Translations under genes and position numbers: made by a program
The notes under the pieces: model-generated
Told to the model about the DNA's origin: nothing
The model's input: only the letters and a program-made list of their open reading frames with translations
The model's database searches: none
Assembly (NCBI GenBank): GCA_028288305.1
Contig: JAQBOA010000036.1
Span: forward strand, 109,267 to 173,266
DNA length: 64,000 bases
Origin: Mucilaginibacter sp.
GTDB lineage: Bacteria > Bacteroidota > Bacteroidia > Sphingobacteriales > Sphingobacteriaceae
Reading direction: 5' to 3'
Shown: piece after piece, positions 42,349 to 63,427 of the stretch
Position numbering within the stretch: the stretch's first letter is position 1
Layout of the letters: each line of letters starts with the position of its first letter

Positions 42349-42356
42349 CTGTTTAT

Positions 42357-42373: not shown

Positions 42374-42384
42374 GTTATTTAACT

Positions 42385-42425: not shown

Positions 42426-42492
42426 ACTTTTTAGTTAATTAAAATAAATTGCATGTACTAAAGCGGCAATGCCTTAAAATACAATCGACTCC

Positions 42493-42618
42493 ATGGACAA
42501 AAAAAGAAGAGCCAGGAGGGGAGCAAAGAAACAACAAAACAGTAAAATTAATTGGCGGCATACCGATACTGATGCGTGGATGAAACTAAAAAAGCTTTAT
42601 CCGGCACTTTTAACTTAA
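42493..42618 (+). CDS. Possible 41-aa basic peptide
   Basis: Frame MDKKRRARRGAKKQQNSKIN then WRHTDTDAWMKLKKLYPALL and T. It has a highly basic N-terminus and an amphipathic C-terminus, no signal or GG leader. It sits between the precursor and the enzyme paralogue. Family not recognised; it may be a small accessory or immunity peptide, or not expressed. Confidence 0.35.
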   Translation: MDKKRRARRGAKKQQNSKINWRHTDTDAWMKLKKLYPALLT

Positions 42619-42695
42619 CACTATTGTTAAGCTAAAAAGAGCCCCAAATAAAGCATAATATTATACTAAAACACCTTTAACACAGCAATAGTTAT

Positions 42696-43829: not shown

Positions 43830-43844
43830 TTTATTTTTAACATT

Positions 43845-46031
43845 GTGCGAGACAAATTTCCATTTTACAAACAACTTGATTATCGAGACTGCGGCCCAAC
43901 ATGTCTTCAGATGATTTCTAAACACTATGGTAAAAATATATCAAGGGAATATCTAAGAAGTATTGCTGGAATAACTCGGATAGGAGTAACAATGGGTGGC
44001 ATTTCTGATGCTGCCGAAAATATTGGTTTTAGAACACTAGGAATGAAAGTGTCTTTTAGTCAATTAATTAAGGATATACCAGTCCCTTGTATTATTCCAT
44101 GGAAACAAAATCATTTCGTTGTGATCTACAATGTAACCGATGGTGAAATTTGGATAGCTGATCCAGCAAAAAATAAAATAAAATATAGCTATGATGATTT
44201 TTTAAATAATTGGACTACGCTAGATAACACTGGTTACGTTTTAGTTCTTAATCCAACTAATGATTTCTATTCATTAAACTTAAAAGATAAAAATAGTCGA
44301 AAGGGAATTCGTTTTCTTATACCATATTTAAAAACATATAAAAAATCCATTGCCCAAATATTTGTAGGCTTAATACTTGGATCGGCCATTCAGTTTGTTA
44401 TGCCTTTTTTGATCAGGGCAATAGTTGACGTAGGAATTAAAGATAAGAACATTTCATTTATCTATTTGATTTTAACCGCACAGATATTTCTTTTTTTTTC
44501 GCAAACCTTAATTCAAATTTTCAGAGAATGGATAGTACTACATATAACGAGTAAGTTAAATATAAGGATGGTTTCTGACTTTTTATATAAAGTTCTTAAT
44601 CTTCCAATTTCATACTTCGAGACGCGGAATACTGGTGAACACTTGCAAAGAATTACCGATCATCGTAGAGTTCAAGATTTTGTCGGTACCGCTTCATTCA
44701 GTCTTGTTTATTCCATATTGTTATTTGTAATATTTAACATTATTTTACTTCAGTACAATCTAAAAATATTTGCGGTTTTTTTTATAGGTGCAATCGCCTT
44801 TATTTCCTGGACATTATTTTTTCTGCGAAGAAGAGCGGAGATTGATTACAGACGAAGTGATGAACAGGCCGAAAGTCAAGCTGCTTTGGTTCAAATTATT
44901 AATGGAGTTAACGACATAAAACTAAATAATTCACAACAGAAAAATAGATGGAAATGGGAGCTTGTCCAGGTTCGACTTTTTAAAACATCGATAAAGTCTT
45001 TATCCCTTACTCAAGTCCAAACCATTGGTTCTGGATTCATAAACGAGCTTAAAAATATATTAATTACATTTTTGTGTGCTTATTCCGTTATTAAGGGCGA
45101 CATCACTATAGGTGTAATGATGTCTATACAGTATGTGGTTGGACAATTAAATGTTCCCCTCAATGATTTTATCAGGTATATACAATTGTGGCAAGATGCA
45201 AAATTGAGTATAGAGCGATTGAATCAAGTACACAACAATGAAGATGAAGATTTCGGACATAAGAAGCAAAATATAGAACTGAAAGGCAAGGATATTGTTT
45301 TTGATAATTTATGGTTTCGTTATGGAGGGAATACAACCCCTTTCATTTTGAAAAACTTAAATTGCGTATTTCCAAACGGGAAAGTAACTGCGATAGTTGG
45401 TGCAAGCGGAAGCGGAAAAACAACTTTACTTAAATTGTTGTTAAAATTTAATGAACCTACTCAAGGTGCAATTCTTGTTGATGAAAACGATTTAAAAACC
45501 ATTAACAACAATTATTGGCGTATGCATTGTGGGGCTGTGCTACAAGAGACCTTTGTTTTTGATGATACCATCCTTGGGAACATTTCTGAATCAGAACAAA
45601 CAGACCGCATTAATTTCAAAATGATTGAAGATGCGTCAGAAATTGCAAATGTTACAGAGTTTGTTTCACGATTACCAAACAATTACAATACAACAATCGG
45701 GGCATCAGGTTTAGTTTTAAGTGGAGGTCAAATTCAGCGCTTAATGATTGCTAGAGCAGTTTATAAGAATCCAGAATTTATTTTTTTTGATGAAGCCACG
45801 AGTTCATTAGATGCTAATAACGAAAAAATAATCATGGAAAACCTTGATAAGTTCATGAAAAATAGAACTTCAGTAATAATCGCTCATCGTTTGAGCACGG
45901 TAAAAAATGCTGACAAAATCATTGTTCTTGAGAATGGTGAAATCGTGGAGGAGGGAAATCACCAGTCCCTTACGGAAAAACGAGGAAAATATTTTGAATT
46001 GGTAAAAAATCAATTGGAATTAGGGGGATAG
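43845..46031 (+). CDS. Peptidase-containing ABC exporter (C39 peptidase, PCAT)
   Basis: A 728-aa inner-membrane transporter that removes GG leaders and exports the core peptide. The N-terminal C39 domain has the nucleophile C16 in YRDCGPTC, His in KQNHFVVIY and Asp in IADPAKN. Six membrane helices follow (about residues 160-430), then the nucleotide-binding domain with Walker A GASGSGKTT (519-527), signature LSGGQIQRL and Walker B IFFDEATSSLD. The start is GTG at 43845, needed to keep the full C39 domain. Its natural substrate is the precursor at 42181. Confidence 0.92.
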   Translation: MRDKFPFYKQLDYRDCGPTCLQMISKHYGKNISREYLRSIAGITRIGVTMGGISDAAENIGFRTLGMKVSFSQLIKDIPVPCIIPWKQNHFVVIYNVTDGEIWIADPAKNKIKYSYDDFLNNWTTLDNTGYVLVLNPTNDFYSLNLKDKNSRKGIRFLIPYLKTYKKSIAQIFVGLILGSAIQFVMPFLIRAIVDVGIKDKNISFIYLILTAQIFLFFSQTLIQIFREWIVLHITSKLNIRMVSDFLYKVLNLPISYFETRNTGEHLQRITDHRRVQDFVGTASFSLVYSILLFVIFNIILLQYNLKIFAVFFIGAIAFISWTLFFLRRRAEIDYRRSDEQAESQAALVQIINGVNDIKLNNSQQKNRWKWELVQVRLFKTSIKSLSLTQVQTIGSGFINELKNILITFLCAYSVIKGDITIGVMMSIQYVVGQLNVPLNDFIRYIQLWQDAKLSIERLNQVHNNEDEDFGHKKQNIELKGKDIVFDNLWFRYGGNTTPFILKNLNCVFPNGKVTAIVGASGSGKTTLLKLLLKFNEPTQGAILVDENDLKTINNNYWRMHCGAVLQETFVFDDTILGNISESEQTDRINFKMIEDASEIANVTEFVSRLPNNYNTTIGASGLVLSGGQIQRLMIARAVYKNPEFIFFDEATSSLDANNEKIIMENLDKFMKNRTSVIIAHRLSTVKNADKIIVLENGEIVEEGNHQSLTEKRGKYFELVKNQLELGG

Positions 46032-46032
46032 T

Positions 46033-46542
46033 ATGATGTCTGAAAATAATGAATCAATTATTTATAGTGAACCTGTAAATAAAATATTGGAAAATTCTGA
46101 TATTTTTTTTTTCAAGTGGGGATTACTCATTTTTTTATTTTTCATTTTTGTTTTACTTGGTTTAGCAGTAACCGTAAAATACCCCGATAAAATAATCTTA
46201 CCACAAGGTAGGGTCTCGTCTGTTCCTCAAACACAAAGTATAATATATTCAACAGTAATTGGAAAGCCGCAAGTGGATAAAATTAAGATTGGCGCACGCG
46301 CTTTATTTTATGTTGATAACAATCAGTTTCCTGAACACAAAGGTACTATGGAGGGTGTCGTGTCATGGATCTCAAAAATTCCTTCTAAAAATGGAGATTA
46401 CGCCATTCAAGTACAGTTAAAAAACTCGTCAATCATTGTCCGAAGATCAACTTCAGGGCTCAAAACAGATATGGTAACTTCTGTAGAGGTTTTGACCAAC
46501 GAAATCACCCTAATTGGTCGTCTTTTTAATCAAAAAAAATGA
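46033..46542 (+). CDS. Very short HlyD-like membrane-fusion adaptor
   Basis: A 169-aa protein with one helix (residues 27-49), then VKYPDKIILPQGRVSS and a beta-rich part (IGARALFYVDNNQFPEHKGTMEGVVSWIS). These are the start and end parts of HlyD-type adaptors; the long coiled-coil hairpin and lipoyl halves between them (usually about 200 residues) are absent. It starts one base after the exporter stop, so both are co-translated. It may be a natural mini-adaptor or an internally deleted gene. Confidence 0.65.
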   Translation: MMSENNESIIYSEPVNKILENSDIFFFKWGLLIFLFFIFVLLGLAVTVKYPDKIILPQGRVSSVPQTQSIIYSTVIGKPQVDKIKIGARALFYVDNNQFPEHKGTMEGVVSWISKIPSKNGDYAIQVQLKNSSIIVRRSTSGLKTDMVTSVEVLTNEITLIGRLFNQKK

Positions 46543-46901: not shown

Positions 46902-47013
46902 TTGTGTGAGAAATGTGTGAGAATAAAAAAGCCCCACTTGCCGAAGTGGGGCTAACTTGTTGATTTACAAGCTCCTGAGGCTGGGCTCGAACCAGCGACC
47001 CTCTGATTAACAG
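46902..47013. repeat. Central att-like junction between RiPP and defence units
   Basis: The left part (46902-46975) repeats 37402-37475, including the terminator hairpin at 46930-46953. The right part (46971-47013, 43 bases) is identical to 63461-63503. Read on the minus strand it is the 3' half of tRNA-Asn from CTGTTAATCAG (anticodon GTT) through GGTTCGAGCC to AGGAGC. The two repeats share only GCTCC (46971-46975). It therefore combines the right end of one integrated unit and the left end of the next. Confidence 0.85.
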
Positions 47014-47316
47014 AAAGAGCCTCAGTGTATATAATATCCTAATTATCAGTATTTTATAACCTTAAATTATTTCACTGTTACGTATTTGTAACACATTTTG
47101 ATCTTGCACCGCCATGTTTCGCTTTATCAAATATAATTAAAATGTTGAAATAGCAGTCTTGAACTTTTATATCCATCATTAACGAGTAGCAGTGTTTTAT
47201 AAATTATTTGAAGTTTAATCCTGTTTTTGGCTGTGAGTTTAAGTGAACTCAACAGATTTAAACTTGAACCGTTTTTGTGCATACGCAGCTATATTATAAA
47301 TCTGTATTGTTTGGCC
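47014..47316. other. Gap inside left end of the defence unit
   Basis: No gene. ACTGTTACGTATTTGT at 47074-47089 is repeated exactly at 63292-63307 near the other end of the unit and is a candidate integrase arm-binding site. The rest is AT-rich. Confidence 0.5.
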
Positions 47317-48300
47317 TCATGCTACGCCATACTTTTTAGCGATTGGTTGAAGTAATGTTTCTACCGAATTTATATTTAATGGTCTTCTTGATGTCACAGC
47401 ACCATGATTTTTTCCATGTTGCAATAAGGCCTCCAAAACAGTAAATAGTTCCGCGTCTTCAATTTTAAAATCTTCTATGTCCAAACAGCCTATTGGTAAA
47501 TTACCTTGTAAAATGAACCAAAATAATTTACCTAACTGGAATATATCAGATGAACCATCGATGTTGCAATCAAAAGTGAATTCTGGATTTTTGCTCTTTT
47601 CAGCCAGGAATTTATTCATAGCTTCGGGTGTTTCCCAGCCAAAAGCGCCTAATCTTTGATAATTGTCAAGCGCCAATTCATCTTCTTTTTTAAACCGCAT
47701 TAAACCCAAATCGCCAATTTTACATTCCTCACCAAACATAAATATATTGTCATGCTTAATATCACGATGGTAAATGTTAATACCGTGCAACTGCTTTATA
47801 CCTTTCAAAATACTTGTAAAGAGCAATATTTTTTGCTGGATCGACCTTCTTTCGTCAAGGTAATCTGTTAAGTCAGATGTTCCTTTTTCCATTGTATAAT
47901 ATAAAAACACTTTTTCCTGAACTTTTATCTCACCATGATTGATAATTTTTACAACGTTGGGCAATCTGTATTGATTAGCACGTTTAAGAGCTATTATTTC
48001 CCTAAGAAATCTTTGTTTACGATTTTGTGTATAATAGCTATGAGATTGATTGGTTTGAATATTCGAAATTTTAATGATCAATTCACTAGATGATTCATCC
48101 TCGTAATCTTCATCGTCGTTGTCAGCAACAACAAGCTTAAAAACATTTGAATTACCACCGCGATTCCCTTTAACGGTATCACTAAGATTTCGCATTTCAT
48201 AGTCGTTGCCATCAATATTAATAATATTATCATAGCCATCCTTTGCCAAGGTGATACGGTTATCACTGGATACCGTAACTCTTTTAGATGTTTTTACCAT
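47317..48300 (-). CDS. Serine/threonine protein kinase paired with DUF262
   Basis: A 327-aa Hanks-type kinase without membrane segment. It has a glycine-rich loop (KGNRGGNSNVFK), the catalytic loop YHRDIKHDNIFMF, a DLG in place of DFG (KIGDLGLMRF) and SSDIFQLGKLFW in the F-helix region. An acidic insert (NDDEDYEDESS) follows the glycine loop. It begins 4 bases after the DUF262 gene, so they form a two-gene operon. Kinases in defence islands often trigger toxicity by phosphorylating host targets; that role here is inferred. Confidence 0.8.
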   Translation of the reverse strand: MVKTSKRVTVSSDNRITLAKDGYDNIINIDGNDYEMRNLSDTVKGNRGGNSNVFKLVVADNDDEDYEDESSSELIIKISNIQTNQSHSYYTQNRKQRFLREIIALKRANQYRLPNVVKIINHGEIKVQEKVFLYYTMEKGTSDLTDYLDERRSIQQKILLFTSILKGIKQLHGINIYHRDIKHDNIFMFGEECKIGDLGLMRFKKEDELALDNYQRLGAFGWETPEAMNKFLAEKSKNPEFTFDCNIDGSSDIFQLGKLFWFILQGNLPIGCLDIEDFKIEDAELFTVLEALLQHGKNHGAVTSRRPLNINSVETLLQPIAKKYGVA

Positions 48301-48304
48301 ACGG

Positions 48305-49408
48305 TTACGCGCTGAATACTATACTTGGTTTCAGGACTTTTAATTGATTTAAATCAATTGTATAATACTGCCCATTTTGCTGTAATTCAAAATTCAGCAT
48401 TTCATAATAGGTCAATATTTCGCGTTGTACCGTATTTGGGACTAAAGCTTCATTCAGAAATAGGCTTTGATAGAATGATCTTCGCTCTTGTCGGGCGTTT
48501 TTGGAATTAGATTGAGTAACACAATTCCTAGCATAGTTTTGAAGGGGTAGACAATCGTCATTAGATGGTGATATATCACTGGAAATTAATACCAGTATTT
48601 GATAGATGACTTTTAATTGCTCTATCGGCAAATTCGTATCGTTAATAAATCCGAAAAATGTATAGAAATCATTGCGCTGTTTATATCTCGTTTTACGAAT
48701 AGGAAAAAGAGAATTTAGAATATTCATGTTGTTTATTACACCAAGGAATTTCGCGTGCAGAAGGTCATATTGCGCTTGAGTAATGTCTTCTACAAATGTC
48801 CTGTCAATTTGGTCTTTCTTATCGGTGATACCGTCCTTTAACAAAACGATTAACTCCGACACAAAATCCATGTCGTTCATTCGTTTTAAAACATTGTCAG
48901 TGAATAATCCTAAATTTTTAAACCCTGTATAATCATTGCATATGTTTATTAGTTTAAGAAATTTGGTATCATAGTAAGTCGCTTTATTGACCTCGGGGCG
49001 ATTCAAATGAACACCGGCACTATTCACAAGCCCGTAAAATTCCTCTATGGAAATGTCATCAACTGCAATATCTTCGATAACGATTACAGCAATTGGAAAT
49101 TGATCAAAGTTGGGATAGTCATTAATATTATATAATCTATCATTGAAGTCAGTAAACCCGCCATTTCTAAATGCTACTAAAGTACGGGTACGTTGTTGGC
49201 CATCTACAACCTCAAAATTTCCAGGTTGTAATTCCCTTAAAAAAATATTTGGAATCGGATAGTTTTTGAAAGTTGATTCGATTAATATTCTTTGATCTTC
49301 AAGTGACCAAATAAAGTTTCTTTGATATGGTGGGCTCAGGTCTAAATTCCCAGCTGCATGAACAGAAATTAACTGGTTAATCGTCCATGTTTCAATTCTA
49401 AATCTCAT
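48305..49408 (-). CDS. DUF262 (GmrS/ParB-like) domain protein
   Basis: A 367-aa protein. Residues 24-50 read LSPPYQRNFIWSLEDQRILI, and 67-75 VVDGQQRTR; the PxYQR...W and DGQQR motifs define the DUF262 NTPase/ParB-like fold found in GmrSD-type modification-dependent restriction. No HNH (DUF1524) nuclease domain is seen at the C-terminus, so a partner must supply the effector; the kinase directly downstream is the obvious one. It faces away from the helicase operon across a 212-base divergent promoter region. Confidence 0.82.
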   Translation of the reverse strand: MRFRIETWTINQLISVHAAGNLDLSPPYQRNFIWSLEDQRILIESTFKNYPIPNIFLRELQPGNFEVVDGQQRTRTLVAFRNGGFTDFNDRLYNINDYPNFDQFPIAVIVIEDIAVDDISIEEFYGLVNSAGVHLNRPEVNKATYYDTKFLKLINICNDYTGFKNLGLFTDNVLKRMNDMDFVSELIVLLKDGITDKKDQIDRTFVEDITQAQYDLLHAKFLGVINNMNILNSLFPIRKTRYKQRNDFYTFFGFINDTNLPIEQLKVIYQILVLISSDISPSNDDCLPLQNYARNCVTQSNSKNARQERRSFYQSLFLNEALVPNTVQREILTYYEMLNFELQQNGQYYTIDLNQLKVLKPSIVFSA

Positions 49409-49620
49409 TGTTATATAAGGATATGTAAACAGGTTGGTTATGTAATATTAAGGATATTATTTAAAAGTCATAACATTGCTAGATGTTTGACTCAGAATAA
49501 TTATTCGAAATTAAATATAAAACTCAATTATTATTAAATAACTTAGGCATTGAATCCGAATTATATTTTTACATATGAATAGCAATCTTTTGTTGTTATA
49601 GACCTGCTTCTAACAAATAA

Positions 49621-51231
49621 ATGGATATAAAAAACCTGATCACTCGCCTTGATGAAGAAGCGTTTCAAAACATACTCGGAAAAGAAGTTGTAGCCACGTT
49701 AAACCTGCTTGGAGGCAAGTACGTATATTCGGAGAACCTTTTAAAGGTGCTTTTCAATACTTATTCAAATCAAGAATTAGTATTAAAAAAGATTTCAAGG
49801 AATTATTTAATTGACGCATTAAATAGGGAAGAAATAACCAACTTGATATTTATATTGGGTGTACAGCCGTCGAAAGACATGTATGAATTTGTTAAAGAGT
49901 TAAACTTCAAAGGCGATATACTTGATCGATTATTCAATTACTTTGGTGAGATCCTTCCAAAGGAAACACCATTGGAGTGGATTTCAGAGGTAGCGATTGT
50001 TCCTAAATACCCTTTATATTCCTATCAAATTAGCGTACAGGGCAAAATTGATAGGTTTTTGGCAACTGAAAAGAATAGAGTTCTCCTACATATGCCTACC
50101 GGTTCTGGTAAAACAAGGACTACGATAAGTTATATATGCAATTTCTTTTTGAAAAATGAGGGCGTTAACGTTGTATGGTTTGCAAATACAAAAGAGTTAC
50201 TAGACCAAGCATTTTCCGAATTTGTCCGAGCATGGAGTCTGTTAGGTAATCGTGATATTAAAGCGATTAAATTTTGGGATAAATCTACAGTGGACCTCAC
50301 TCAATTAAAAGGTTGCTTCATTGTCGCTGGTTTGGATAAAACATATCAGGCGTTGATGAAAAACATGAGTTCAATTAGCATCTTCGCCAATGGTTGCAAA
50401 TTGATTATTATGGATGAAGCCCATATGGCTATTGCCCCAACTTACAAGCTGCTTATTGAAAATATGATTGCCAATAAGACATCATTGATTGGGCTCTCTG
50501 CAACACCTGGAAGAACATGGAATGACCCTGATGAAGACAAAAAGCTTTCTAACTTTTTCTATCGTCAGAAAGCAAAACTGGAAATCCCTGGATATGAAAA
50601 CCCTGTTGATTACCTTGTTGACGAAGGGTATCTGGCAAGGGTAAATAACACTAAATTATTTACAGATTCCGGCATAACCTTATCGGCAAATGACATTAAG
50701 TATTTGACGGAAAACTACGTTTTGCCAACAAACGTTTTGAAGGATCTTTCTGAAAGCCGTCTTAGAAATATGGCCATCATAAGTAAAATCAAAGAACTCA
50801 TCAAAGTTCACAAACGAATTATATTATTTGCTATTACAAAAGATCACGCGATTGTATTAAACAGCTTACTTACAGCAATTGAAATAAATTCTAACGTAGT
50901 AACCTCAGACACTAATTCAATTGATCGTTCGAGCATTATTAAGAAATTTAAGGAGTCTCGTCTTGATAATCCTGCACCTATGGTTTTGTGCAATTATGGA
51001 ATTCTGACAACAGGCTTTGATGCTCCGGAAACAAGCTGCGCTGTTATTGCAAGGCCTACGGATTCTTTGGTTTTATATAGTCAAATGGTTGGCAGGGCAA
51101 TTAGGGGTATAAAATCGGGAGGTAACGCTACAGCTGAGATTGTTACAGTAATAGATGAAAGCCTTCCTGGCTTTAAAGAAGTAGCTGATGCTTTTTTAAA
51201 TTGGGAAGATGTTTGGGAAAAAGAAATATAG
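49621..51231 (+). CDS. SF2 DEAD/DEAH helicase (ResIII-like)
   Basis: A 536-aa helicase. An N-terminal helical domain of about 130 residues has no recognised family. The RecA-like core follows: Walker A MPTGSGKTRTT (about 158-168), motif II IIMDEAHMA, motif III GLSATPG, and in the second lobe TTGFDAPE and QMVGRAIRG (motif VI). No nuclease domain is fused. It is the first gene of a three-gene operon with a GHKL ATPase (16-base gap) and a PLD-like protein, so it probably translocates on DNA for the partner nuclease. Confidence 0.9.
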   Translation: MDIKNLITRLDEEAFQNILGKEVVATLNLLGGKYVYSENLLKVLFNTYSNQELVLKKISRNYLIDALNREEITNLIFILGVQPSKDMYEFVKELNFKGDILDRLFNYFGEILPKETPLEWISEVAIVPKYPLYSYQISVQGKIDRFLATEKNRVLLHMPTGSGKTRTTISYICNFFLKNEGVNVVWFANTKELLDQAFSEFVRAWSLLGNRDIKAIKFWDKSTVDLTQLKGCFIVAGLDKTYQALMKNMSSISIFANGCKLIIMDEAHMAIAPTYKLLIENMIANKTSLIGLSATPGRTWNDPDEDKKLSNFFYRQKAKLEIPGYENPVDYLVDEGYLARVNNTKLFTDSGITLSANDIKYLTENYVLPTNVLKDLSESRLRNMAIISKIKELIKVHKRIILFAITKDHAIVLNSLLTAIEINSNVVTSDTNSIDRSSIIKKFKESRLDNPAPMVLCNYGILTTGFDAPETSCAVIARPTDSLVLYSQMVGRAIRGIKSGGNATAEIVTVIDESLPGFKEVADAFLNWEDVWEKEI

Positions 51232-51247
51232 TATTAAAACAAAATAA

Positions 51248-53089
51248 ATGAATCATTCAATAGTTCCAGTGCATTTGGTTGTAAAATCAATGCGCGATAA
51301 TGGATATAAAAATACGGCATATGCTATAGCCGAATTAATAGATAATTCTATTCAGCATGGTGCTACTATTGTAGATCTAATTTGCCTGGAAGATGATGTA
51401 CAAATTGCTACTTCCAAAACGGTTTCCCGAATAAGCGAGATTGCAGTTTTGGATAATGGGCAAGGCATGAATGCAGAAACATTACAAAAAGCATTGCAAT
51501 TTGGCAACGGTACAAACTTAGGGAAAGAAAATCAAAAGGGGATCGGAAAATTTGGGATGGGTTTGCCCTCTTCTTCTATATCACAAGCGGTGCGGGTAGA
51601 CGTGTGGAGCTGGCAGGGAGATATTAAACAGGCACTTCATACTTATATTGATGTAAATGAAATAAGTGAGGGGTTTATGACCGATGTCCCTGATCCTTTA
51701 CTAGAAGTCATTCCAGCTAAGTGGTTGGAGATAGTCAAAACATTTGGCCCTACGGGCACTTTGGTGGTATGGTCTAAACTAGACCGTTGTTTGTGGCGCA
51801 CAGGTAAAACGATTATTGATCACTCAGAATACATTGTCGGCAGAATGTATCGTAAGTTTATTAATAGCGGAAAAGTTACCATCAAAGCAACAGTGGTTAA
51901 ATCCAGTAATTTAAAAACTCCTGTACACAGTGAAGCATTCCTGGCAAACGACCCTATGTACCTGATGCAAAATACTAGCGTTTCTGAACTGTTGGCCAAA
52001 CAAGGCCTTCCTGATCCGATGTTCGCAAAACTTGGGGGTGACGATGGTTTTGAAAAGAAATTTACTATTAACTTTGAGAATCAAAATCATGATGTTTTTG
52101 TACGCTATTCTTTTGCAACTGAAACAACCAGGAAAGGTAAACTTGCCGGTTCATACCCACATGGTAAGCATGCCGCTGGCAATATTGGTGTATCTATTTT
52201 AAGAGCGGGACGTGAATTAGACTTAGATACCTCGTGGACTGTTTATGATGCCCGTGAAAGATGGTGGGGCGTCGAAGTTGAATTTCCACCTTCACTTGAT
52301 GAAGTATTTGGGGTTACAAACAATAAACAGTTTGCAAATAATTTTAAAGAATTAGGCAGCATCAATTTCCGGGATTATTTAGAAGAGCGTGGTCAATCCA
52401 TTTCAGAATTTAAAACAGAGTTACTGGAAGATAATGATTTGAAGGCTTTATTAATTGAAATAGCTGTTGATATAAAAAACCAATTAGGTAATCTTAGATC
52501 AACTATTAAGGCTCAAGCACCACACTTAGAAAAGAGCGATCCAAGTGCGCGACATCCGGCAGTAGAAGTAATTGATGAAGCAGAAAAGCATGCTTCGGAT
52601 GTTACTCAACTAAGAAAAGATCATGGTATAGTATCACCAAGCGATAAACAGGCTGACTCTAAAACAGAAGAAGAAAAGCTGGAGGAAATTGTAAAAACTC
52701 TTACCGAGGATCAGGTACCTGAACCTGCGGCATTTGCGAAAACGATGATTACATCTTCGGTGATATATCAATTTGTTGATGCTAACTTTGAATCAAAAGC
52801 ATTCTTTTCTGTTGTCCCTGCGGGCGGAAAAATCATCATAAAGCTCAATACCAGTCACCCGGCCTATGATCAGTTTGTGGAAGTTCTCAAGGATGATATA
52901 GATCCTGATGCTACCAAGGATGACCTGATTCAACGCTTACTGAGTGCAAAAGATGGTATGAAGCTCTTGTTAATGGCTTGGGCAAGATTTGAGGATGAAC
53001 AACCGGACGGTAAATTAAAAAACAATGTTAAGGATGCCAGAATAGATTGGGGTAAGATGGCGACTGCATTTATGACGATCGATGAGTAA
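51248..53089 (+). CDS. GHKL ATPase, MORC/Hsp90-like
   Basis: A 613-aa protein. The GHKL fold is clear: N box AIAELIDNSIQHGA (N33), G1 box LDNGQGM (69-75 region) and G2 box GIGKFGMGLPSSS (98-110). The AELIDNS form is that of MORC/MutL/Hsp90-type ATPases rather than histidine kinases. An S5-like domain and a C-terminal acidic/helical region (after residue 420) follow. Prokaryotic MORC relatives beside SF2 helicases and nucleases have been described as restriction-type systems (Iyer, Abhiman and Aravind, 2008). It overlaps the PLD gene by 8 bases. Confidence 0.82.
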   Translation: MNHSIVPVHLVVKSMRDNGYKNTAYAIAELIDNSIQHGATIVDLICLEDDVQIATSKTVSRISEIAVLDNGQGMNAETLQKALQFGNGTNLGKENQKGIGKFGMGLPSSSISQAVRVDVWSWQGDIKQALHTYIDVNEISEGFMTDVPDPLLEVIPAKWLEIVKTFGPTGTLVVWSKLDRCLWRTGKTIIDHSEYIVGRMYRKFINSGKVTIKATVVKSSNLKTPVHSEAFLANDPMYLMQNTSVSELLAKQGLPDPMFAKLGGDDGFEKKFTINFENQNHDVFVRYSFATETTRKGKLAGSYPHGKHAAGNIGVSILRAGRELDLDTSWTVYDARERWWGVEVEFPPSLDEVFGVTNNKQFANNFKELGSINFRDYLEERGQSISEFKTELLEDNDLKALLIEIAVDIKNQLGNLRSTIKAQAPHLEKSDPSARHPAVEVIDEAEKHASDVTQLRKDHGIVSPSDKQADSKTEEEKLEEIVKTLTEDQVPEPAAFAKTMITSSVIYQFVDANFESKAFFSVVPAGGKIIIKLNTSHPAYDQFVEVLKDDIDPDATKDDLIQRLLSAKDGMKLLLMAWARFEDEQPDGKLKNNVKDARIDWGKMATAFMTIDE

Positions 53090-54038
53090 CAGGTTATTTA
53101 AAAACGGTATTGATTTGTTTAATGAGTTGTCAGTTTTCATTAATGGGGCTGACAACCTTTCCATCTATGTTCCTTATATTAAACTACAACCTTTAAAGGC
53201 ACTAATTGACAATCATAGCTCAGTTAAGACTGTAGTTGTTAGATGGGAACCGAGAGATTTGATTACAGGAGCTTCGGACTTGGAAATTTACTCCTATTTA
53301 AAAGAAAAGGGCATTACCTTATACCGAAATCCACGGGTGCACTTAAAGGCCTTTGTACACGATGGTGAAAGAGCATTTTTTGGCAGCGCGAACATTTCAC
53401 AGAGGGCTTTAAACAATCCTCCATTACTCAATTATAATTATGAACTTGCTACCGTAGTAGAAAACTTGGGTTTGGATGAACGGTTATACTTTAATTTAAT
53501 TGAGGCAGAAAGTGTTTTAATAACAGATCTGATATACGAGCAAATAAAATCGCAACTACCCGAAAAAATTGCCTCATTTCCTAAAGAGTCTGATTTTGAC
53601 ATTGCTATCCAATATCCAGATAAAAACTATTCTATATCTTCCCTTCCAATGACCTATAATGTAGAAACGCTTTACAGGATTTATGAAACCCATGAAGGGC
53701 TTCATGAAGTGGAACTAAGCTGCTCATTACATGATTTAGCCCTTTATAATCTGCCATTGGGATTACCTTTAGATGAATTTAAAAAACAACTTAAGGTAAG
53801 TTTCTTCAATCACCCTTTTATTCGCGAATTTTTAAGGAATGTAGATAACGAAGGGGAAATATATTTTGGTGGCGCAAAGGACTGGATACATCGTAATTGC
53901 TCAGACGTACCCACCCCCAGAAAATGGGAGATTACCGAAAATATCCAAATCTTATATCGTTGGATTACTGCGTTAGGGGAGGGAATTTACCAAATGGACA
54001 GACCCTCACATTCTGAACGTCTCTTTTTAATTAAATAA
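53082..54038 (+). CDS. PLD-superfamily nuclease-like protein
   Basis: A 318-aa protein with one HxKx4D motif: HLKAFVHD followed by GERAFFGSANIS (about residues 87-106). A single HKD per chain means it should act as a dimer, as in Nuc/BfiI-type nucleases. The C-terminal 150 residues are unassigned. Its start lies inside the end of the GHKL gene (8-base overlap), so the two are translationally coupled. Likely the DNA-cutting effector of the helicase-GHKL-PLD operon. Confidence 0.82.
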   Translation: MSNRLFKNGIDLFNELSVFINGADNLSIYVPYIKLQPLKALIDNHSSVKTVVVRWEPRDLITGASDLEIYSYLKEKGITLYRNPRVHLKAFVHDGERAFFGSANISQRALNNPPLLNYNYELATVVENLGLDERLYFNLIEAESVLITDLIYEQIKSQLPEKIASFPKESDFDIAIQYPDKNYSISSLPMTYNVETLYRIYETHEGLHEVELSCSLHDLALYNLPLGLPLDEFKKQLKVSFFNHPFIREFLRNVDNEGEIYFGGAKDWIHRNCSDVPTPRKWEITENIQILYRWITALGEGIYQMDRPSHSERLFLIK

Positions 54039-54166
54039 AAGTATCCAAAAACAACAAAGCATCTTCTAAAGTTTTGAAAACATTGCCGGATGGCTGGTGT
54101 GCGATCTTAAAATATCGAGCAAAAGTTTCATCCACTTAATCCTTTAATGCCTTCCATTTTTTATAT

Positions 54167-55273
54167 TTAAATAAAGCAGGACGCACATCCAATCCCTTCC
54201 TCTTCATCCAAAATGTCAACCAAAAAAGCTGACTTTTTATTTGCTGCGCGATCTTGCTTTTTCGCGTAATCGTTCTTGATTTGTTTAATTCTATCCGGTG
54301 CGATTAATTGCTCTAGACTTTCATTTTGCATCCATGTATATCCATCTTTTTCATAAACCATAGCTTTTCTGAAAAGCTCGGGATGTTGTTCATATAACCA
54401 TACCCATTCGATCTTTTGTTGGTAAAAGCAAAAGAAACAACCGGACCGGCTACGTGCATATGATGAATTTTTACCGTTGATTTCGAAATCGATCTTCTTA
54501 TAATAAGCAGGTACTCCTACGCCTGATTCCTCTAAAATTCTAAAAATATCATCCCGTACCAAATTCTCATCGTTTTCTAATAACGGGAAATACGCATCGT
54601 CCTGGGCTAAAGGGTAATTAGTTGATTTTAGAAAATTGTAAACAAGGTAATTCGTTTCCTTTACGCCTAAGTCAAGTAATTGATTTAACTTATTATGCAT
54701 ATTATAATTCAGGTCTAACGACTTGGCCAGGATACCTTGTAATTTCCCGCTTTTTGTGCCAAAATCAAACTGCGATAGCCCATCAATATTAAATGCCATA
54801 TGATCATTGGCCAGAAATTTTTCTATAACATCTTCACTCCAGATGTTTTTTCTGAAAGGGAATATAGATTGAATATTAGGCTTCCTGGATATATATCCTT
54901 CACGGTCTTCATCACCCCTTATGCCTACATACGAAATAACCAAGTCGTTGCCGACGTACTTTTCAAATGGTTCCAGTTTTAACTTCTTCGTACACCAACG
55001 TGCATTTGATGATGGCAGGTAACCGCCATACATTTTGAGAAAATGATCAAAGGGATCTTCGTGGCTATTTTCGGCAGCTTTTAATATATTAATGCTTTTA
55101 CCGAGATACACCTCCAAATTTGTAATTAACTGATAAGTTTCGTCAAGTTCTTTTCCGGTATCGCTCGAGTAATATTCTATATCTAAGAGCGGATAAAGGT
55201 TCTTCAAATAAATTGCCAATGCGGCGCTATCTTTTCCCCCTGATATACCCAGGACGTGTCTTACCTTACTCAT
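54167..55273 (-). CDS. PAPS-reductase/DndC-like PP-loop protein
   Basis: A 368-aa ATP-pyrophosphatase-fold protein. The PP-loop is SGGKDSAAL (residues 11-19), and CTKKLKLEPFEKYVG and YVGIRGDEDREGY follow. Cysteine pairs near the C-terminus (GCFFCFYQ and the final GCASCFI) with the Cys in ARWCTKK could hold an iron-sulfur cluster, as in the sulfurtransferase DndC. No cysteine desulfurase, DndD or DndE is nearby. It is the last gene of the DUF4007-ATPase-PAPSR operon and overlaps the ATPase by 8 bases. Confidence 0.82.
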   Translation of the reverse strand: MSKVRHVLGISGGKDSAALAIYLKNLYPLLDIEYYSSDTGKELDETYQLITNLEVYLGKSINILKAAENSHEDPFDHFLKMYGGYLPSSNARWCTKKLKLEPFEKYVGNDLVISYVGIRGDEDREGYISRKPNIQSIFPFRKNIWSEDVIEKFLANDHMAFNIDGLSQFDFGTKSGKLQGILAKSLDLNYNMHNKLNQLLDLGVKETNYLVYNFLKSTNYPLAQDDAYFPLLENDENLVRDDIFRILEESGVGVPAYYKKIDFEINGKNSSYARSRSGCFFCFYQQKIEWVWLYEQHPELFRKAMVYEKDGYTWMQNESLEQLIAPDRIKQIKNDYAKKQDRAANKKSAFLVDILDEEEGIGCASCFI

Positions 55274-58200
55274 TTTCCAATACTTTTTGCAACAGTGTGG
55301 TCAATATCAATTTGTTCAAATTCTGGTCGTTAGATAGGGCTAAGCCAAGCTTATCGACATATGAATTAATATTATTTGCTTGGTCACGGGAAACACGAAT
55401 GATATTTTTTTGGGGATTACTTCCAAAGGTCACAAATTGCAGGTTATAAACCTGTTCTTTTTCTTCATCAATTTCAATAGCAGATAATTCGGTTAAACTG
55501 TCCAGATCATGAATCATGCTTTTAAAATTCTCATATAAAAGAATTTCTTCTTCATCCCGGATCGTTTCCAGACTTTTACCTAATAACGATTGGCAAACTG
55601 AACTTAACCAAGCGCGATTATCATCAAGCAAGGAGTCTATTCGTTGTACAAACGATTTTTGTTTGGTTAAAAGTAAATGGCGTTTTAAAGGTAAAAATCG
55701 TTCCTGAAGTTTGGCTTTAGCAACATCAAAATCTACTTGCCCATCTTCAAACAAAATTTCGTGTTTAATAAATGATTCAAATCTATCTACTAATCCTTCA
55801 AAGCAAGTTCGAATTTCTTTAATGGCATTTTGTAACGTTTCTATATAATTAACCAATAAAGTAGGATCATCGTTTAAATCCTTGATGCCACTGCCCAATG
55901 CCGCCGGTAAAGCCTCAAAGAAGGTAATTTCAGGATCTTTGGACTTTGAAATGGCATTTCGTACGGAAATGGCTTCTTTAGATAGGCGGGCAGTTTGTTT
56001 AGCATATTCAGGCAGTGTACGGTAAAATACCAAAAATGGCTTGATAGTTTCTATAAAAGAACTATTGTTAATCGTTGCTTTGCTGTCCTGATTTAAAAAA
56101 GTCCGATAGCTATTGAAAATATCTAACCTAACGCCGTCTATATCAAAAGCTTTGATTTGAAAATCTTTAGGCTTCTTAGCTAACAGTTCTAAAGTATCAT
56201 CGGTCATTGAAGGGAGGAAAGCCCCATCGCAATACAATGCAAAATCATTTCGCTTTAAAAAAAGGAATGACGGTATCCAGAAATCAATAAAGCCTTGCTT
56301 TAACTTAAATGGTTTTTGGGATAAAAGGTCCACAAAAAGGTTAAGCGATTTCGGATGCTGTTTAGTTCCATCCAAAAACTGTTGACTTAAAGTGATTAAC
56401 CTATAAAAACTATCACCTGGCCGGATATCTGCGTTCAAGTCCTCTTTATAAGGCGATAATCCGTTGTCCAATAACAGGGAGCGGAAGATCATTTTCTCCG
56501 GCGGAAATTTATTTTCTGGTATCCCTAAATCTGGTTGATCCCAATTCGCAACTAGTCCTTTAAAATAGTTTCTCTTGGCGGTATAAATAGCACTGGAGAT
56601 TTTATGCTTATTGACTAGTTCGTTTTTGAATACGGGTGCTGAGCTATATACCTCTTTACAAACCTGGGTCAATAGTTTATTAAACCCTTTTTTGGAACTA
56701 ACAGTTTGAGTAGCATTGTTCCAGTACCAGGATATATCTGTTGTACCCGTATAAAGATTATTCAATATGAAGTGGTTTAAAAGAATTTGCTGGTGTGCCG
56801 CAATGCTTTCCAACTCCCTTTTTGCTACTTTATCATTAGAATTTTCATTTAGTACTTTTCTTGTTTTTTCAAGATCAAATAATAGTGCCTTAATATCTTT
56901 TGAATTTTTGTAAAAAACATAGATGTTGGCGGATGGTGCAGCCTCGTTTAAAAGCGCAATGTCCCTTTCCTTGATATTTTCATTAAAAATCAACTGGATG
57001 TAACCATCAATTTCATTTTCAGGTGTGAGTATTCTCGGGTACTCAGATATTTCAAATTGAAAATACCTGCTCGTTCCATTGATATAAGAATACTCTTTCG
57101 CAAGGACAGGTGAAAACTCGAAGTATTTTTTGAGTACCGTCGGAATGTCAGAAATTTCGGAAACACGGTCCCCTGCCTCGATCAACGCTAACTCAATATC
57201 AATCTCGGCTTCTTCCGACAAAACATACCGTTTACTGTGTTTACGATAACGAATGATACTTTTAGAAATTAAGTTCTCTATTATAATATCGCTATCACTG
57301 ATGCCTAAACAGTTTACCGCGTAGCCTGATAAAAATTTCTGATCTAGAACTGCGCCTGCGGCAGAAAAAGTATTTAGCAAACCTATAGTCTTTACTATTT
57401 TTAAATAGTCATCAATTTTGCTGTCGAATGAGTTTTCAACTTGTTCTATAGCCTGACGTATTGCTGCCCAAGATGCAGAATCCGGGTTATGTTTAGAATG
57501 CAGGAATGAATAAAAATTATTGATCAGGTAATCGAAAACATTCGACAAATTGTAGAACGGTGACTTAGCAGACGTTGTAAACTTTAGAATACCGGCTTGG
57601 TCTGTAGATTCTAAAAAAGAAAATAATGACCGCTCATTCTGACCGTAATTTTGCAGGGCAAGCGTTAACACATTTGCAGCGAGTAAATCAAGCGGAAATA
57701 ATTTACTTGCAACTTCCTTGCTATACCCTGATTTAAACGCCTTTGCATTTTCAAAAATAGACAAAGCGGTATTGATTTGCTTTGAGCCGTTGGGATAAGA
57801 AAGCTGCGAAATATGTTCCGACGCTAAATATAGTAATTGCTCAACTGGTTCATTAAACGTTAATTCCTTAAATCGGCCCTTTACTTTTGTCCACTCCTGC
57901 CTTAACGATTTATTCAACTCGTATGAATAGCTGTCAAAATTTTGGTGAACGGTTGTAAGTAGAAGTATCTGGTGCTTAGAATTGTTCGCAAATTCAGCCA
58001 ATTGCTGTAAAAAATACAACTCCCTTTCAGGGTTGTTTTTTGCCGCAAATTCTAAAAACTTACCTAGTTCATCAACGACAATAACCAACAAAGAGTTTTT
58101 TGACTTTAGCTGGTGGTATCTGTTAAATAACTCCGATAAAATATTTTCAATCTCATGTTTTTCTGAAACGACGTCTAAATATTCAGCGAAGGTTTTGATA

Positions 58201-58484
58201 ACGGATTTGTAGCTGCCTATTATCTTGATGACCTCTACTTTGGAACCGTTGAACGTTGACAAATCAAAGTGCGGATGTACTTTGAGCAAAGTTTGCTCTA
58301 ACGCTAAAAGAAATGAAGATTTGCCGGTGCCGTACGAACCGATCAAATTAAATGATCTTAATCCTTTATCGAAATCATCCTGAATTTGGCTAATAATTCG
58401 TTTGGAATTGGGGGTGGCAATATAATGAACCGCCTTAGATTGATCTCTAATAATATTAACTGACGGGGAGTAATTTGTGCTCAT
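55266..58484 (-). CDS. Large P-loop ATPase of the DUF4007 operon
   Basis: A 1072-aa protein. I chose the ATG at 58484 (4 bases after the DUF4007 stop) over a TTG ten codons upstream. Walker A GSYGTGKSS is at about residues 49-57 and Walker B LLVIVVDELGKFLEF at about 135. After the AAA-type N-terminal third, the long helical remainder has no recognised domain. Size and layout recall BrxC/PglY-type ATPases of BREX systems, but no PglZ, methylase or BrxL is present. It is in operon with DUF4007 and the PAPS-reductase-like gene. Confidence 0.75.
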   Translation of the reverse strand: MSTNYSPSVNIIRDQSKAVHYIATPNSKRIISQIQDDFDKGLRSFNLIGSYGTGKSSFLLALEQTLLKVHPHFDLSTFNGSKVEVIKIIGSYKSVIKTFAEYLDVVSEKHEIENILSELFNRYHQLKSKNSLLVIVVDELGKFLEFAAKNNPERELYFLQQLAEFANNSKHQILLLTTVHQNFDSYSYELNKSLRQEWTKVKGRFKELTFNEPVEQLLYLASEHISQLSYPNGSKQINTALSIFENAKAFKSGYSKEVASKLFPLDLLAANVLTLALQNYGQNERSLFSFLESTDQAGILKFTTSAKSPFYNLSNVFDYLINNFYSFLHSKHNPDSASWAAIRQAIEQVENSFDSKIDDYLKIVKTIGLLNTFSAAGAVLDQKFLSGYAVNCLGISDSDIIIENLISKSIIRYRKHSKRYVLSEEAEIDIELALIEAGDRVSEISDIPTVLKKYFEFSPVLAKEYSYINGTSRYFQFEISEYPRILTPENEIDGYIQLIFNENIKERDIALLNEAAPSANIYVFYKNSKDIKALLFDLEKTRKVLNENSNDKVAKRELESIAAHQQILLNHFILNNLYTGTTDISWYWNNATQTVSSKKGFNKLLTQVCKEVYSSAPVFKNELVNKHKISSAIYTAKRNYFKGLVANWDQPDLGIPENKFPPEKMIFRSLLLDNGLSPYKEDLNADIRPGDSFYRLITLSQQFLDGTKQHPKSLNLFVDLLSQKPFKLKQGFIDFWIPSFLFLKRNDFALYCDGAFLPSMTDDTLELLAKKPKDFQIKAFDIDGVRLDIFNSYRTFLNQDSKATINNSSFIETIKPFLVFYRTLPEYAKQTARLSKEAISVRNAISKSKDPEITFFEALPAALGSGIKDLNDDPTLLVNYIETLQNAIKEIRTCFEGLVDRFESFIKHEILFEDGQVDFDVAKAKLQERFLPLKRHLLLTKQKSFVQRIDSLLDDNRAWLSSVCQSLLGKSLETIRDEEEILLYENFKSMIHDLDSLTELSAIEIDEEKEQVYNLQFVTFGSNPQKNIIRVSRDQANNINSYVDKLGLALSNDQNLNKLILTTLLQKVLENE

Positions 58485-58488
58485 TGCT

Positions 58489-59337
58489 TTAAATAAATAG
58501 TGAGAAGTTGTCAAGTGGTTTCTCTTTAAATTGTATTTCTTTTATGCCCGCCTGGTCGTTATAAGTAATCCACTCATATTTATCAGTTAATTGTTCTACC
58601 TTATCTAAAAGGTCTTGTCGGTTTAACGCAAAGATATTACCTGGACTATTCTCATCATTTTCCAAGGTGTGCAAACTAATAGAGTTTGAAAAACGATGAA
58701 TATCTAATATCGTATATAATAACACCTCTGGCGACAACGATGGTCTTTCAGCCTGGTCAATGAAATAAACCCCTTTTTCATATAATTTCAGCAATTGCAA
58801 ATCTGATAACAACCCTAAAAAGGAATCTTCGGTAAGCTTATTGTCTTCTGATTTATTGAGATACATTTTCTTGAACACATCGAAATCATCTCCGACGGTT
58901 TTGATATTCACATTTTCAAGTATTCTTACTACGAAAGATTGAAAATTTTCTTTCGTAAACTGCATCTTTTCCTTTCGGAACACATTGAATATCAGGTGAT
59001 AGATTGATGAAAAGTTATTTTGAATAAGTTGATAATGTAATAACCATAGGCTTTGATCGTCTTCCAAATACGGATCAAAGCCATTCGGACTGAATAAAAA
59101 ATTAGCAAAAGGGGTTAGCTGTTCACCGTTATCAATTAAATTGAAGGCTTTCATCCAAAATTTAATGGATGTTACCATGTTCTTTCCGACACCTAATGTT
59201 ACAACTGCATCCGGGGCATTAAACGATCTGCCATTATTGAGATAGTCGTACCCTTTTTTTAACCATAATTGCCTGCAATGGAAGCTCTCGTGTCCAGAGA
59301 AGGTATATTTTATATTATCTGCAAGTAGTTGGCTCAT
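58489..59337 (-). CDS. DUF4007 family protein
   Basis: A 282-aa protein beginning with the recognisable DUF4007 pattern: YTFSGHESFHCRQLWLKKGY near the N-terminus, then AVVTLGVGKNMVTSIKFWMK. The ATG at 59337 is preferred to an upstream TTG. It is the promoter-proximal gene of the operon. DUF4007 genes are often found with PAPS-reductase-like and ATPase genes in defence islands; the biochemical function is not known to me. Confidence 0.82.
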   Translation of the reverse strand: MSQLLADNIKYTFSGHESFHCRQLWLKKGYDYLNNGRSFNAPDAVVTLGVGKNMVTSIKFWMKAFNLIDNGEQLTPFANFLFSPNGFDPYLEDDQSLWLLHYQLIQNNFSSIYHLIFNVFRKEKMQFTKENFQSFVVRILENVNIKTVGDDFDVFKKMYLNKSEDNKLTEDSFLGLLSDLQLLKLYEKGVYFIDQAERPSLSPEVLLYTILDIHRFSNSISLHTLENDENSPGNIFALNRQDLLDKVEQLTDKYEWITYNDQAGIKEIQFKEKPLDNFSLFI

Positions 59338-60740
59338 CAAGACTATTTCTTAGAAAACAAAAATTAACATAAACAGATCAAAATTACTAATAATTTTAGT
59401 AATTTAAAGTCTATAATTTAACAAGTACAAAATAAGCACTAATCCGCAGAATAAATGACAAATTTATGCACATTTAATGAGAATCTTCATGGAAGTTAAT
59501 TAGCCATTTTAGTATATATACCTCAAAGAGAAATAAAGTTTGAAATCTAAATCAACGTTTCTCCACCCACTTAACAGAAATTAGGCTCCGCTGGATATCA
59601 GCAGCAATTTTATAGTTGCATATCCTGCTCAACAGTTCGCAATTGAAATCAGCGAAACTCTTGCCTTTTTAGGGTTAATTAATCCATCATATTTGTTCTA
59701 AGACTTGCTCATGTTAATGTTTAAATCAAGCCAAGTTTAGTCATACCAAAACGGCTTGCCGAAACGCCCGGACAATGCTGCACTACGTTATGGCATATCT
59801 GAATTTAAATTGCCTATGAGCGACATATCTGAATATATAACTATATGGATTACTTGTTTGATTTTTCAATTGCAAGTTGTGTTTTTGGGTACCCCAAAAA
59901 CTTACTTGCCCTTCCGCCGGGAGCGATACGGGGTTGGAAGACCTGCGCAACTTGGTCTTCCTTAACTTTTAATTCGCTCATTGCCCAGACGGCTTTAAAC
60001 AATTCTTCTTGCTTTAGTAAAACAAGCGTTTAAAAGCTTCCTTTCTTGTAGGAGTATTAGAACAAAGTATATTATAATGACTAGTCCGATCCATAAGTTC
60101 ACAGTCGTAAAGAAAACCAAGTTGCGCAGGTTTTCTTCCATGCCGCTATGCGGGAATGGCAAGTAAGTTTTTGTGACACAAAAACACAACTTGCAGGATA
60201 AAAAACGGCAAGCGGCTGTATATACGTCTATATAGATAGTTAAATAGTTTAAAGCGCTTGCCCGAACTATCAAATGTTGAAGCTTCACAATAGGTTAATA
60301 TCTAACCGCCCAAAAGAATTGCCTATCTTTTGTTTTTGAATCTATAATGATTGGAAGCTGGCTTGCTAAAAGAAAATACGAAATATAATCAAAACCTCTT
60401 TTCTAAACCGATACATTATCATTCGCTACACAAACGGTTGCTACTATAATAAAGCTGCATACTCAATAAACAGCTATTAAATTATTCATATTAACAGATA
60501 TACAAATAAGCGTATATAAGGCTTGCTCTCTATGTTCAATTAAAGCTTTAGCAGAGTACGATAACAGGTTTTTTAAATAACAGGATATGACTAATCCACA
60601 ATTTCACTAAACATTCTCAATTGCGAATACAGCGTATTAGCATAGTCTGATGAAGAAAGAAATGGTATTTTTGGTGGTAAAACCAAATATTAGGAAGCTT
60701 AAAAGCTATTGGAACAAGAAGTATAACAAAGAGCACAATT
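59338..60740. other. 1.4-kb non-coding stretch in the defence unit
   Basis: No convincing gene; short frames overlap repeats. It contains a composite inverted repeat (59872-59955 and 60117-60194) and a further 8-bp inverted pair GGCAAGCG/CGCTTGCC (60207-60214, 60255-60262). 60460-60520 shares ATACAAATAAGCGTATA-like words with the hairpin at 61849-61901. The right end must hold the promoter of the YhcG-type gene. Confidence 0.5.
59872..60194. repeat. Composite inverted repeat with hairpin arms
   Basis: The left arm begins with GCAAGTTGTGTTTTTGGG folding on CAAAAACTTACTTGC (59872-59909), then CCTGCGCAACTTGG (59942-59955). The right arm is its mirror: CCAAGTTGCGCAGG (60117-60130), then GCAAGTAAGTTTTTGTG folding on CAAAAACACAACTTGC (60159-60194). 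Each arm is a hairpin and the arms are inverted around a 161-base spacer. Confidence 0.75.
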
Positions 60741-63266: not shown

Positions 63267-63291
63267 AATCATTTTCAATAGCCACGGAAAA

Positions 63292-63307
63292 ACTGTTACG
63301 TATTTGT
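63292..63307. promoter_or_regulatory. Candidate integrase arm-type site (right)
   Basis: ACTGTTACGTATTTGT, identical to 47074-47089. Each lies 60-155 bases inside or beside an att repeat. The left copy extends to a GTTAC/GTAAC dyad. It overlaps the region upstream of the chosen integrase start, so it could also mediate autoregulation. Confidence 0.45.
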
Positions 63308-63427
63308 TACGTTTTTCCGTGAAGTTCAACAAAAAATCCTGCGAAACTGAAATATGGAAATACTGACCTCCCGGAAGAGAGCTGCTGCAAAAACCGCGTT
63401 TTTACAGCAGAAAAGGCCATTTTTAAA

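Follow-up and report, generated by a model that had tools for sequence, protein, structure and literature searches.

SspBCD homologues adjoin a helicase-GHKL-PLD operon and a DUF262-kinase operon in a predicted defence island of Mucilaginibacter sp.

Gene content of the locus

The window analysed here, a stretch of 64,000 nucleotides from a Mucilaginibacter sp. genome (assembly GCA_028288305.1, contig JAQBOA010000036.1, positions 109,267 to 173,266), carries a putative defence island of eight open reading frames in three tight operons, located at 47317-49408 (minus strand), 49621-54038 (plus strand) and 54167-59340 (minus strand). The first encodes a protein kinase and a DUF262 protein, the second a superfamily 2 (SF2) helicase, a GHKL ATPase and a PLD nuclease (the trio), and the third homologues of SspD, SspC and SspB, the modification module of Ssp phosphorothioation systems (Table 1).

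A previous interpretation made from the DNA letters without database searches (the sequence-only reading) had proposed that the three operons act as one sulfur-based modification and restriction system. The eight open reading frames, their order, strands and domain labels were borne out by open reading frame and Pfam checks, as was the convergence of the second and third operons, which are separated by 128 bases. Genes within each operon had been described as overlapping or four bases apart; this held for four of the five junctions (overlaps of 8, 8 and 26 bases and one gap of 4 bases), while the helicase and GHKL genes are separated by a gap of 16 bases. The ATPase gene, reported as encoding 1072 amino acids, is present, with a product of 1082 amino acids counted from the longest TTG start. 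A promoter and terminator scan of 47000-60800 returned 53 and 8 sites compared to 52.5 and 9.5 expected, and so revealed nothing beyond chance in that interval.

Table 1. Genes of the island (window coordinates) and copies, in related loci (L numbers), of a GHKL protein that recurs beside SspBCD
Feature	Coordinates	Strand	Supporting match
Ser/Thr-type protein kinase, DUF262 partner	47317-48300	-	PF00069 3e-17
DUF262 protein, predicted phosphorothioate sensor	48305-49408	-	PF03235 7.8e-18; PPYQR and DGQQR motifs
RadD/type III-like SF2 helicase, trio	49621-51231	+	PF04851 3.4e-23
GHKL (paraMORC-type) ATPase, trio	51248-53089	+	PF13589 2.5e-18
PLD nuclease, trio, single HKD-type motif	53082-54038	+	PF13091 4.1e-8
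SspD homologue (PAPS-reductase/PP-loop enzyme)	54167-55273	-	PF01507 5.3e-6; PADLOC SspD 1.5e-92
SspC homologue (BrxC-like ATPase, 1082 aa)	55266-58514	-	PADLOC SspC 1371.7 bits; BrxC 1.7e-76
SspB homologue (DUF4007; nicking/DNA-binding subunit of Ssp)	58489-59340	-	PADLOC SspB 3.6e-103; PF13182 1.9e-76
~817-aa GHKL protein	L153:5222-7672
~817-aa GHKL protein	L154:4175-6595
~817-aa GHKL protein	L155:2553-5003
~817-aa GHKL protein	L164:14137-16587
~817-aa GHKL protein	L169:13375-14898
~817-aa GHKL protein	L288:15230-17677

The SspBCD modification module

By homology, the operon of DUF4007, ATPase and PAPS-reductase genes is SspB-SspC-SspD, in a single transcriptional direction with overlapping genes, in agreement with its earlier interpretation as a sulfur-modification module. 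The SspC homologue contains a Walker A motif (GSYGTGKS). In a set of 72 SspD proteins, the window copy included, SGGKDS was found in 58 and the C-terminal cysteines of GCxxC in all 72.

A methylase, PglZ, DndD/E and a cysteine desulfurase had been listed as missing from the island, which holds for the open reading frames scanned, and from this the set had been judged not to match Ssp. That judgement was wrong for the modification half, because the operon is SspBCD by PADLOC homology and the genome contains an IscS, an enzyme reported to substitute for SspA. SspA itself was not among the island open reading frames in the PADLOC scan; the IscS gene is unlinked (L082) and scored 651.8 against the NCBI curated cut-off of 643.2. 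It has been reported that SspA is replaceable by IscS and that one SspBCD can serve two restriction modules (PMC8092258; here and below, statements on published work are drawn from the parts of the cited papers that were available). The SspC gene is divided into two open frames in one relative (L157:8093-11455).

The trio accompanies SspBCD across phyla

Contigs representing one genome per species were searched with a GHKL alignment, giving 264 relatives, and the best 80 loci were analysed. The helicase was present in 76 and the PLD nuclease in 57; SspC was found in 62, SspD in 59 and SspB in 55, so that 66 loci had at least one of these and 49 had the full set. Hosts were Bacteroidota, Cyanobacteria, Proteobacteria, Chloroflexi, Actinomycetes and others, and an SspA-type desulfurase cluster (one representative checked) accompanied 44/80 loci. 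A set of 40 loci carrying complete copies of all six genes was drawn from these and further loci, the window included; 27 were co-directional and 13 convergent like the window. Co-directional SspD-helicase pairs lay less than 100 bases apart in 12/33 cases and up to 3.1 kb apart in the remainder, often with extra genes between.

Of 395 Bacteroidota genomes, 22 were found to contain SspC and 8 the GHKL gene. Seven of the eight GHKL genomes have SspC on the same contig within 7 kb, compared to SspC in 15 of the 387 others (Fisher p 4.7e-9); three of the seven (L156, L165, L166) hold a more distant GHKL subfamily, and the eighth GHKL genome (G023) has only a 228-amino-acid fragment. The suggestion of joint action by the two convergent operons is thus supported by the neighbourhood search, and given this co-conservation across phyla the SspBCD operon and the trio very probably cooperate.

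No SspB, SspC or SspD was seen in the stretch examined at 14 of the 80 loci; when 13 of these genomes were searched, SspC was present elsewhere in 4 and was not found in 9. Among the 57 PLD-bearing loci, 55 had flanking Ssp genes or SspC in the genome, one (L040) did not and one was outside the genome check, while the 23 loci without a PLD match divided into 15 with and 8 without, a split that may be blurred where divergent PLDs were overlooked or assemblies are incomplete. The armed trio almost always accompanies SspBCD, and the helicase-GHKL pair without a PLD match is freer. Four Chloroflexi/Anaerolineae loci (L046, L047, L049, L052) retain the pair with no PLD match and no SspC found in the genome, and share a neighbourhood of metabolic genes around it.

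Gene trees were concordant within modules (0.86-0.89 for SspB/C/D; 0.84 for helicase-GHKL) and only weakly so between them, although the agreement between modules exceeded that of all 500 shuffles; the PLD tree agreed poorly with either module (0.31-0.48). The modules therefore appear to be exchangeable partners, and the original idea of the three operons as one fixed unit was not upheld.

Motif conservation in the trio was read from alignment columns. The helicase DEAH and QxxGRxxR motifs were kept in 78/78 sequences (Walker A gapped in 8/78 rows), GHKL residues E29, D32, N33, D69 and G73 in 84/84, and PLD residues H87, K89 and N104 in 63/63, with D94 in 44/63; strict patterns matched fewer (PLD HKD spacing 6/63, GHKL N-box 43/84, helicase Walker A 36/78). 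The PLD structure model was nearest to Nuc and SauUSI. The trio has the arrangement by which paraMORC restriction operons are recognised, a GHKL ATPase adjoining an SF2 helicase and a nuclease (the S5 domain lying outside this comparison).

Several other genes recur beside the trio. A cluster of proteins weakly matching a methyltransferase was present in 11/80 loci (L016, L023, L030, L036, L061 and others; one member checked) and a cyanobacterial HTH-HNH nuclease in 10/80 (L007-L011, L032 and others; one member checked); DndB-like genes were further repeated neighbours.

The DUF262-kinase pair continues the SspBCD operon in five other genomes

The DUF262-kinase operon had been given no role in the sequence-only reading. 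Surroundings were seen for six DUF262-kinase loci (the window, L153, L154, L288, L262 and L289), and SspBCD and the kinase were present in all six. In the five other genomes the genes form a contiguous SspB-C-D-DUF262-kinase operon in which the pair directly continues SspBCD at its 3' end; in the window the trio is inverted within the sspD-DUF262 junction, splitting the operon that is contiguous elsewhere. The pair belongs with the Ssp locus.

Kinase residues K77, H178-R179-D180, N185 and D197-L-G199 were kept in 6/6 aligned sequences. The DUF262 protein (367 amino acids) matched only GmrSD_N, with no DUF1524/GmrSD_C domain in the Pfam scan. In an alignment of 16 DUF262 proteins P.[YF]QR was present in all 16, P.YQR in 13 and DGQQR was invariant. 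The P-x-Y-Q motif was rejected as proof of phosphorothioate reading; it cannot decide the reader role because P-x-[YF]-Q, as P.[YF]QR, is also present in DUF262 proteins without Ssp nearby. A structure model of the protein aligned with BrxU, SspE and DndI in a second-look aligner only. We predict that it is equivalent to the sensor domain of SspE and DndI, with the nuclease part lacking.

The DUF262 loci listed from viral contigs (80 of 104) were all at or below 46% identity, none of the plasmid matches listed (12 rows; 87 plasmid records with DUF262) exceeded 30% identity, and no further close homologue was found in the G385 family (79 genomes). Two Hymenobacter records (L092:17266-19104 and L062:12810-14645) encode full-length DUF262/GmrSD-type proteins of 612 amino acids each beside the trio and SspBCD, so a nuclease-bearing DUF262 can also accompany the trio. 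In L288, a genome of the same genus as the window, a Tpt1/KptA RNA 2'-phosphotransferase gene directly follows the kinase (L288:12041-12583).

Second modules beside SspBCD

A second module was close by in all six DUF262-kinase loci: the trio in the window, a GHKL protein of approximately 817 amino acids in L153, L154 and L288, and PbeA with PbeC in L262 and L289. The pair thus looks like an add-on able to partner each of the three modules, a pattern more in keeping with sensing or licensing than with killing on its own. Of the 22 loci with SspC among the 395 genomes, 17 had a second module (trio 7, PbeA 5, 817-amino-acid GHKL 5, one of the last being a 508-amino-acid piece) and 5 had none, one of which (L162) matched PbeC weakly close to the end of the DNA examined; none carried two second modules within the 13-20 kb examined.

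The 817-amino-acid protein has a weak GHKL match (PF13589), gave no PADLOC match in the three copies scanned and is a candidate further Ssp partner; in three loci it also lies beside the DUF262-kinase pair (Table 1). PbeA-type PLD-helicase genes adjoin SspBCD in L158, L160, L161, L167, L170, L262 and L289; PbeABCD has been described together with Dnd modification.

Comparison with described systems

One operon of the island matches a named module (SspBCD), while neither of the other two matches a named stand-alone system in PADLOC at full strength. The overall plan, SspBCD with a separate three-gene restriction cassette, is that of SspABCD-SspFGH (PMC8092258). In the available text of that paper SspF has a Walker A motif and SspH an FtsK-like C-terminus, and neither is said to resemble annotated genes significantly in any other respect, whereas each protein of the window cassette is recognisable, as an SF2 helicase, a GHKL ATPase or a PLD nuclease; judged by these descriptions, the cassette does not fit SspFGH and the assignment was set aside. 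PADLOC returned no SspF, SspG or SspH among matches of the island open reading frames, in a scan that did not compare them directly with the FF-93 proteins.

The DUF262 protein resembles SspE of SspABCD-SspE (PMC9646914) and DndI (PMC11662687) in having a DUF262 domain, here a predicted sensor, with P-x-Y-Q and DGQQR beside phosphorothioation genes; SspE and DndI are described with a C-terminal DUF1524/HNH nuclease, whereas the window protein has no such Pfam match and is paired with a kinase. Neither SspABCD-SspE nor GmrSD was therefore assigned, and the PADLOC SspE model PDLC02792, which matches in 8/14 control genomes, had no match in this genome at E 1e-3, in an assembly approximately 91% complete. 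For the predicted reader the nearest proven parallels are SspE and DndI, and for restriction of unmarked DNA they are SspFGH and DndFGH.

PbeABCD/CxC-DndE likewise has PLD and SF2 helicase functions as its restriction part beside phosphorothioation genes (PMC6459918, PMC10853773). There, PLD and helicase are fused in PbeA, accompanied by a CxC ABC ATPase and a DndE-like protein, while in the window they are unfused and accompanied by a GHKL ATPase. PbeABCD was rejected: the window helicase matches PbeA over the helicase part only (9.2e-21), the PLD is a separate gene, and PbeB, PbeC and PbeD were absent from the PADLOC matches of the island.

paraMORC restriction operons combine a GHKL ATPase with an SF2 helicase and nuclease as the trio does, but the available text ties them to methylases and RE-fold nucleases rather than phosphorothioation (PMC2292703). 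Nitrococcus mobilis is named in the Figure 2 legend of that paper, and our N. mobilis locus (L070) holds the trio and SspBCD, so the neighbourhood may partly be drawn there, unrecognised as phosphorothioation.

MAD6 (MADS) and PglW (BREX) provide examples of a protein kinase within a DNA-modification defence, although the window kinase scores far below both NCBIfam cut-offs (MAD6 31.7 of 460 bits; PglW 19.6 of 990 bits). Both kinase systems use methylation, and we know of no DUF262 sensor that partners MAD6 or PglW.

Three other assignments were rejected. For Dnd, the DndC match was only 3e-5, with no DndD/E among matches of island open reading frames of at least 100 amino acids (PADLOC); for MZA, the GHKL protein scored 75.9 bits to MzaB against an NCBIfam cut-off of 850, with no other Mza among island matches; for DISARM, the PLD was weakly DrmC-like (1.1e-6), with no other Drm among island matches.

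Proposed mechanism and alternatives

We consider that the island is an Ssp-type locus in which SspBCD would sulfur-mark host DNA, the trio would cut unmarked DNA and the DUF262-kinase pair would sense the mark and pass on a signal (probability of this reading as a whole approximately 0.6). What was observed is that both modules are co-conserved with SspBCD; the functional steps we infer as follows. The sspBCD genes would place phosphorothioate marks on host DNA, IscS supplying sulfur to SspD and SspB/SspC choosing and nicking the site. The helicase would travel along DNA, the paraMORC ATPase would serve as clamp or gate, and cutting would fall to a PLD dimer where no mark was met; as with SspFGH and DndFGH, a trio that cuts when the mark is missing would be toxic if SspBCD were lacking. 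At a mark, DUF262 may hydrolyse nucleoside triphosphate and so set the kinase, which could license or tune the neighbouring nuclease module or halt the infected cell.

A narrower version, which we put forward only tentatively, is that the reader has been split from its nuclease and wired to the kinase, such that SspBCD-DUF262-kinase turns DNA sulfur state into phosphorylation that licenses the adjacent nuclease module. The modules so licensed would be the helicase-paraMORC-PLD trio in the window and the 817-amino-acid GHKL protein or PbeABCD in relatives.

A number of observations weigh against this mechanism. Surroundings were seen for only six close DUF262 homologues, out of a family that numbers 1,028 proteins in the database at E 1e-20. 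DUF262 proteins that have no Ssp nearby share the P-x-[YF]-Q motif, which covers Y30/Q31 of SspE, and F replaces Y in 3/16 aligned proteins (L153 included) and in all 8 distant ones. A Foldseek search with the DUF262 model found nothing at or below E 0.001, and the root-mean-square deviation of the second-look matches is 12-19 Å over two domains. With regard to the trio, 9/80 GHKL loci are in genomes in which SspC was not found, including the complete genome of Microcoleus vaginatus HSN003, and one of these genomes (L040) has a complete helicase, GHKL and PLD set; PLD is present in only 57/80 loci, where some contigs end early and some PLDs were possibly missed. Trees of SspB/C/D agree only 0.30-0.39 with those of helicase or GHKL (0.30-0.42 counting PLD).

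Two alternatives, each of which we regard as rather unlikely, concern what the mark does. Host phosphorothioate might instead switch the trio on, in the manner of SspE, leaving it harmless without sspBCD. SspE by itself is non-toxic and requires phosphorothioate (PMC9646914), and PbeABCD has likewise been reported as non-toxic alone and phosphorothioate-dependent (PMC6459918), parts of which are disputed (PMC10853773). However, 8/9 GHKL genomes without SspC have no PLD match beside the pair, as if the nuclease were not tolerated, and no phosphorothioate reader was recognised in the trio.

Equally doubtful is that the DUF262-kinase pair is a phage-triggered abortive-infection kinase whose DUF262 protein senses nucleotides or phage-modified bases rather than the mark. 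The kinase matches the PADLOC PDC-M71A, mad6, PD-T4-6 and Stk2 models moderately, and in GmrSD, BrxU, Menshen and Dazbog the inputs of DUF262, known or presumed, are different ones (PMC10952713). A general abortive kinase would, however, be expected in other settings too, and all six close homologues seen are with SspBCD.

That the trio is a self-sufficient nuclease defence which shares islands with SspBCD and makes no use of the mark seems improbable. The weak tree agreement between modules and the genomes holding a helicase-GHKL pair without SspC are in its favour, and paraMORC-helicase-nuclease operons have been described in restriction systems with phosphorothioate unmentioned in the available text (PMC2292703). 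On the other hand, 66/80 loci adjoin SspB, SspC or SspD across phyla, the co-directional SspD and helicase genes are often closely spaced (12/33 below 100 bases), and island clustering would not yield 7/8 genomes within 7 kb when SspC occurs in 22/395.

A decayed or variant BREX type 4 system, which shares homologues of SspB (DUF4007), SspC/BrxC and SspD (PMC12839542), is very improbable: SspC scores BrxC at 1.7e-76 and SspB and SspD score BrxP weakly, but the best PADLOC SspC model gave 1372 bits compared to 256 bits for BrxC, and no PglZ or BrxL was found among the island open reading frames scanned, the only PglZ-domain gene of the genome being on another contig (C89).

In a published survey, 2,211 of 2,678 sspBCD loci had neither sspE nor sspFGH, restriction partners of an unknown kind being one explanation offered (PMC8092258). 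The window offers two concrete candidate partners, one conserved across phyla, and its relatives add two more; such partners would help to explain why most known SspBCD copies seem partnerless. Neither the trio nor the DUF262-kinase pair was described with Ssp among the literature matches listed, which left subscription journals, preprints and figures mostly uncovered. The modification half, SspBCD, is already known; the kinase readout is possibly new, as no account was found that connects a protein kinase with a mark on the DNA backbone. If correct, it would to our knowledge be the first phosphosignalling readout of a DNA backbone mark, with PglW and MAD6 as nearest parallels.

Neighbouring genes

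Upstream of sspB, the window encodes a YhcG/DUF1016 PDDEXK nuclease (60741-61847, plus strand; PADLOC candidate PDC-S02), a homologue of which also adjoins sspB in L162 (L162:13137-14102). A phage-integrase-like gene (61956-63332, minus strand; PF13102) lies past the defence genes and may mark the edge of a mobile island. On the other side, the interval 38343-46542 (plus strand) encodes an outer-membrane beta-barrel protein, a C39-peptidase ABC exporter, a small protein and two proteins without a Pfam match, and looks like a peptide-export cluster adjoining the island.

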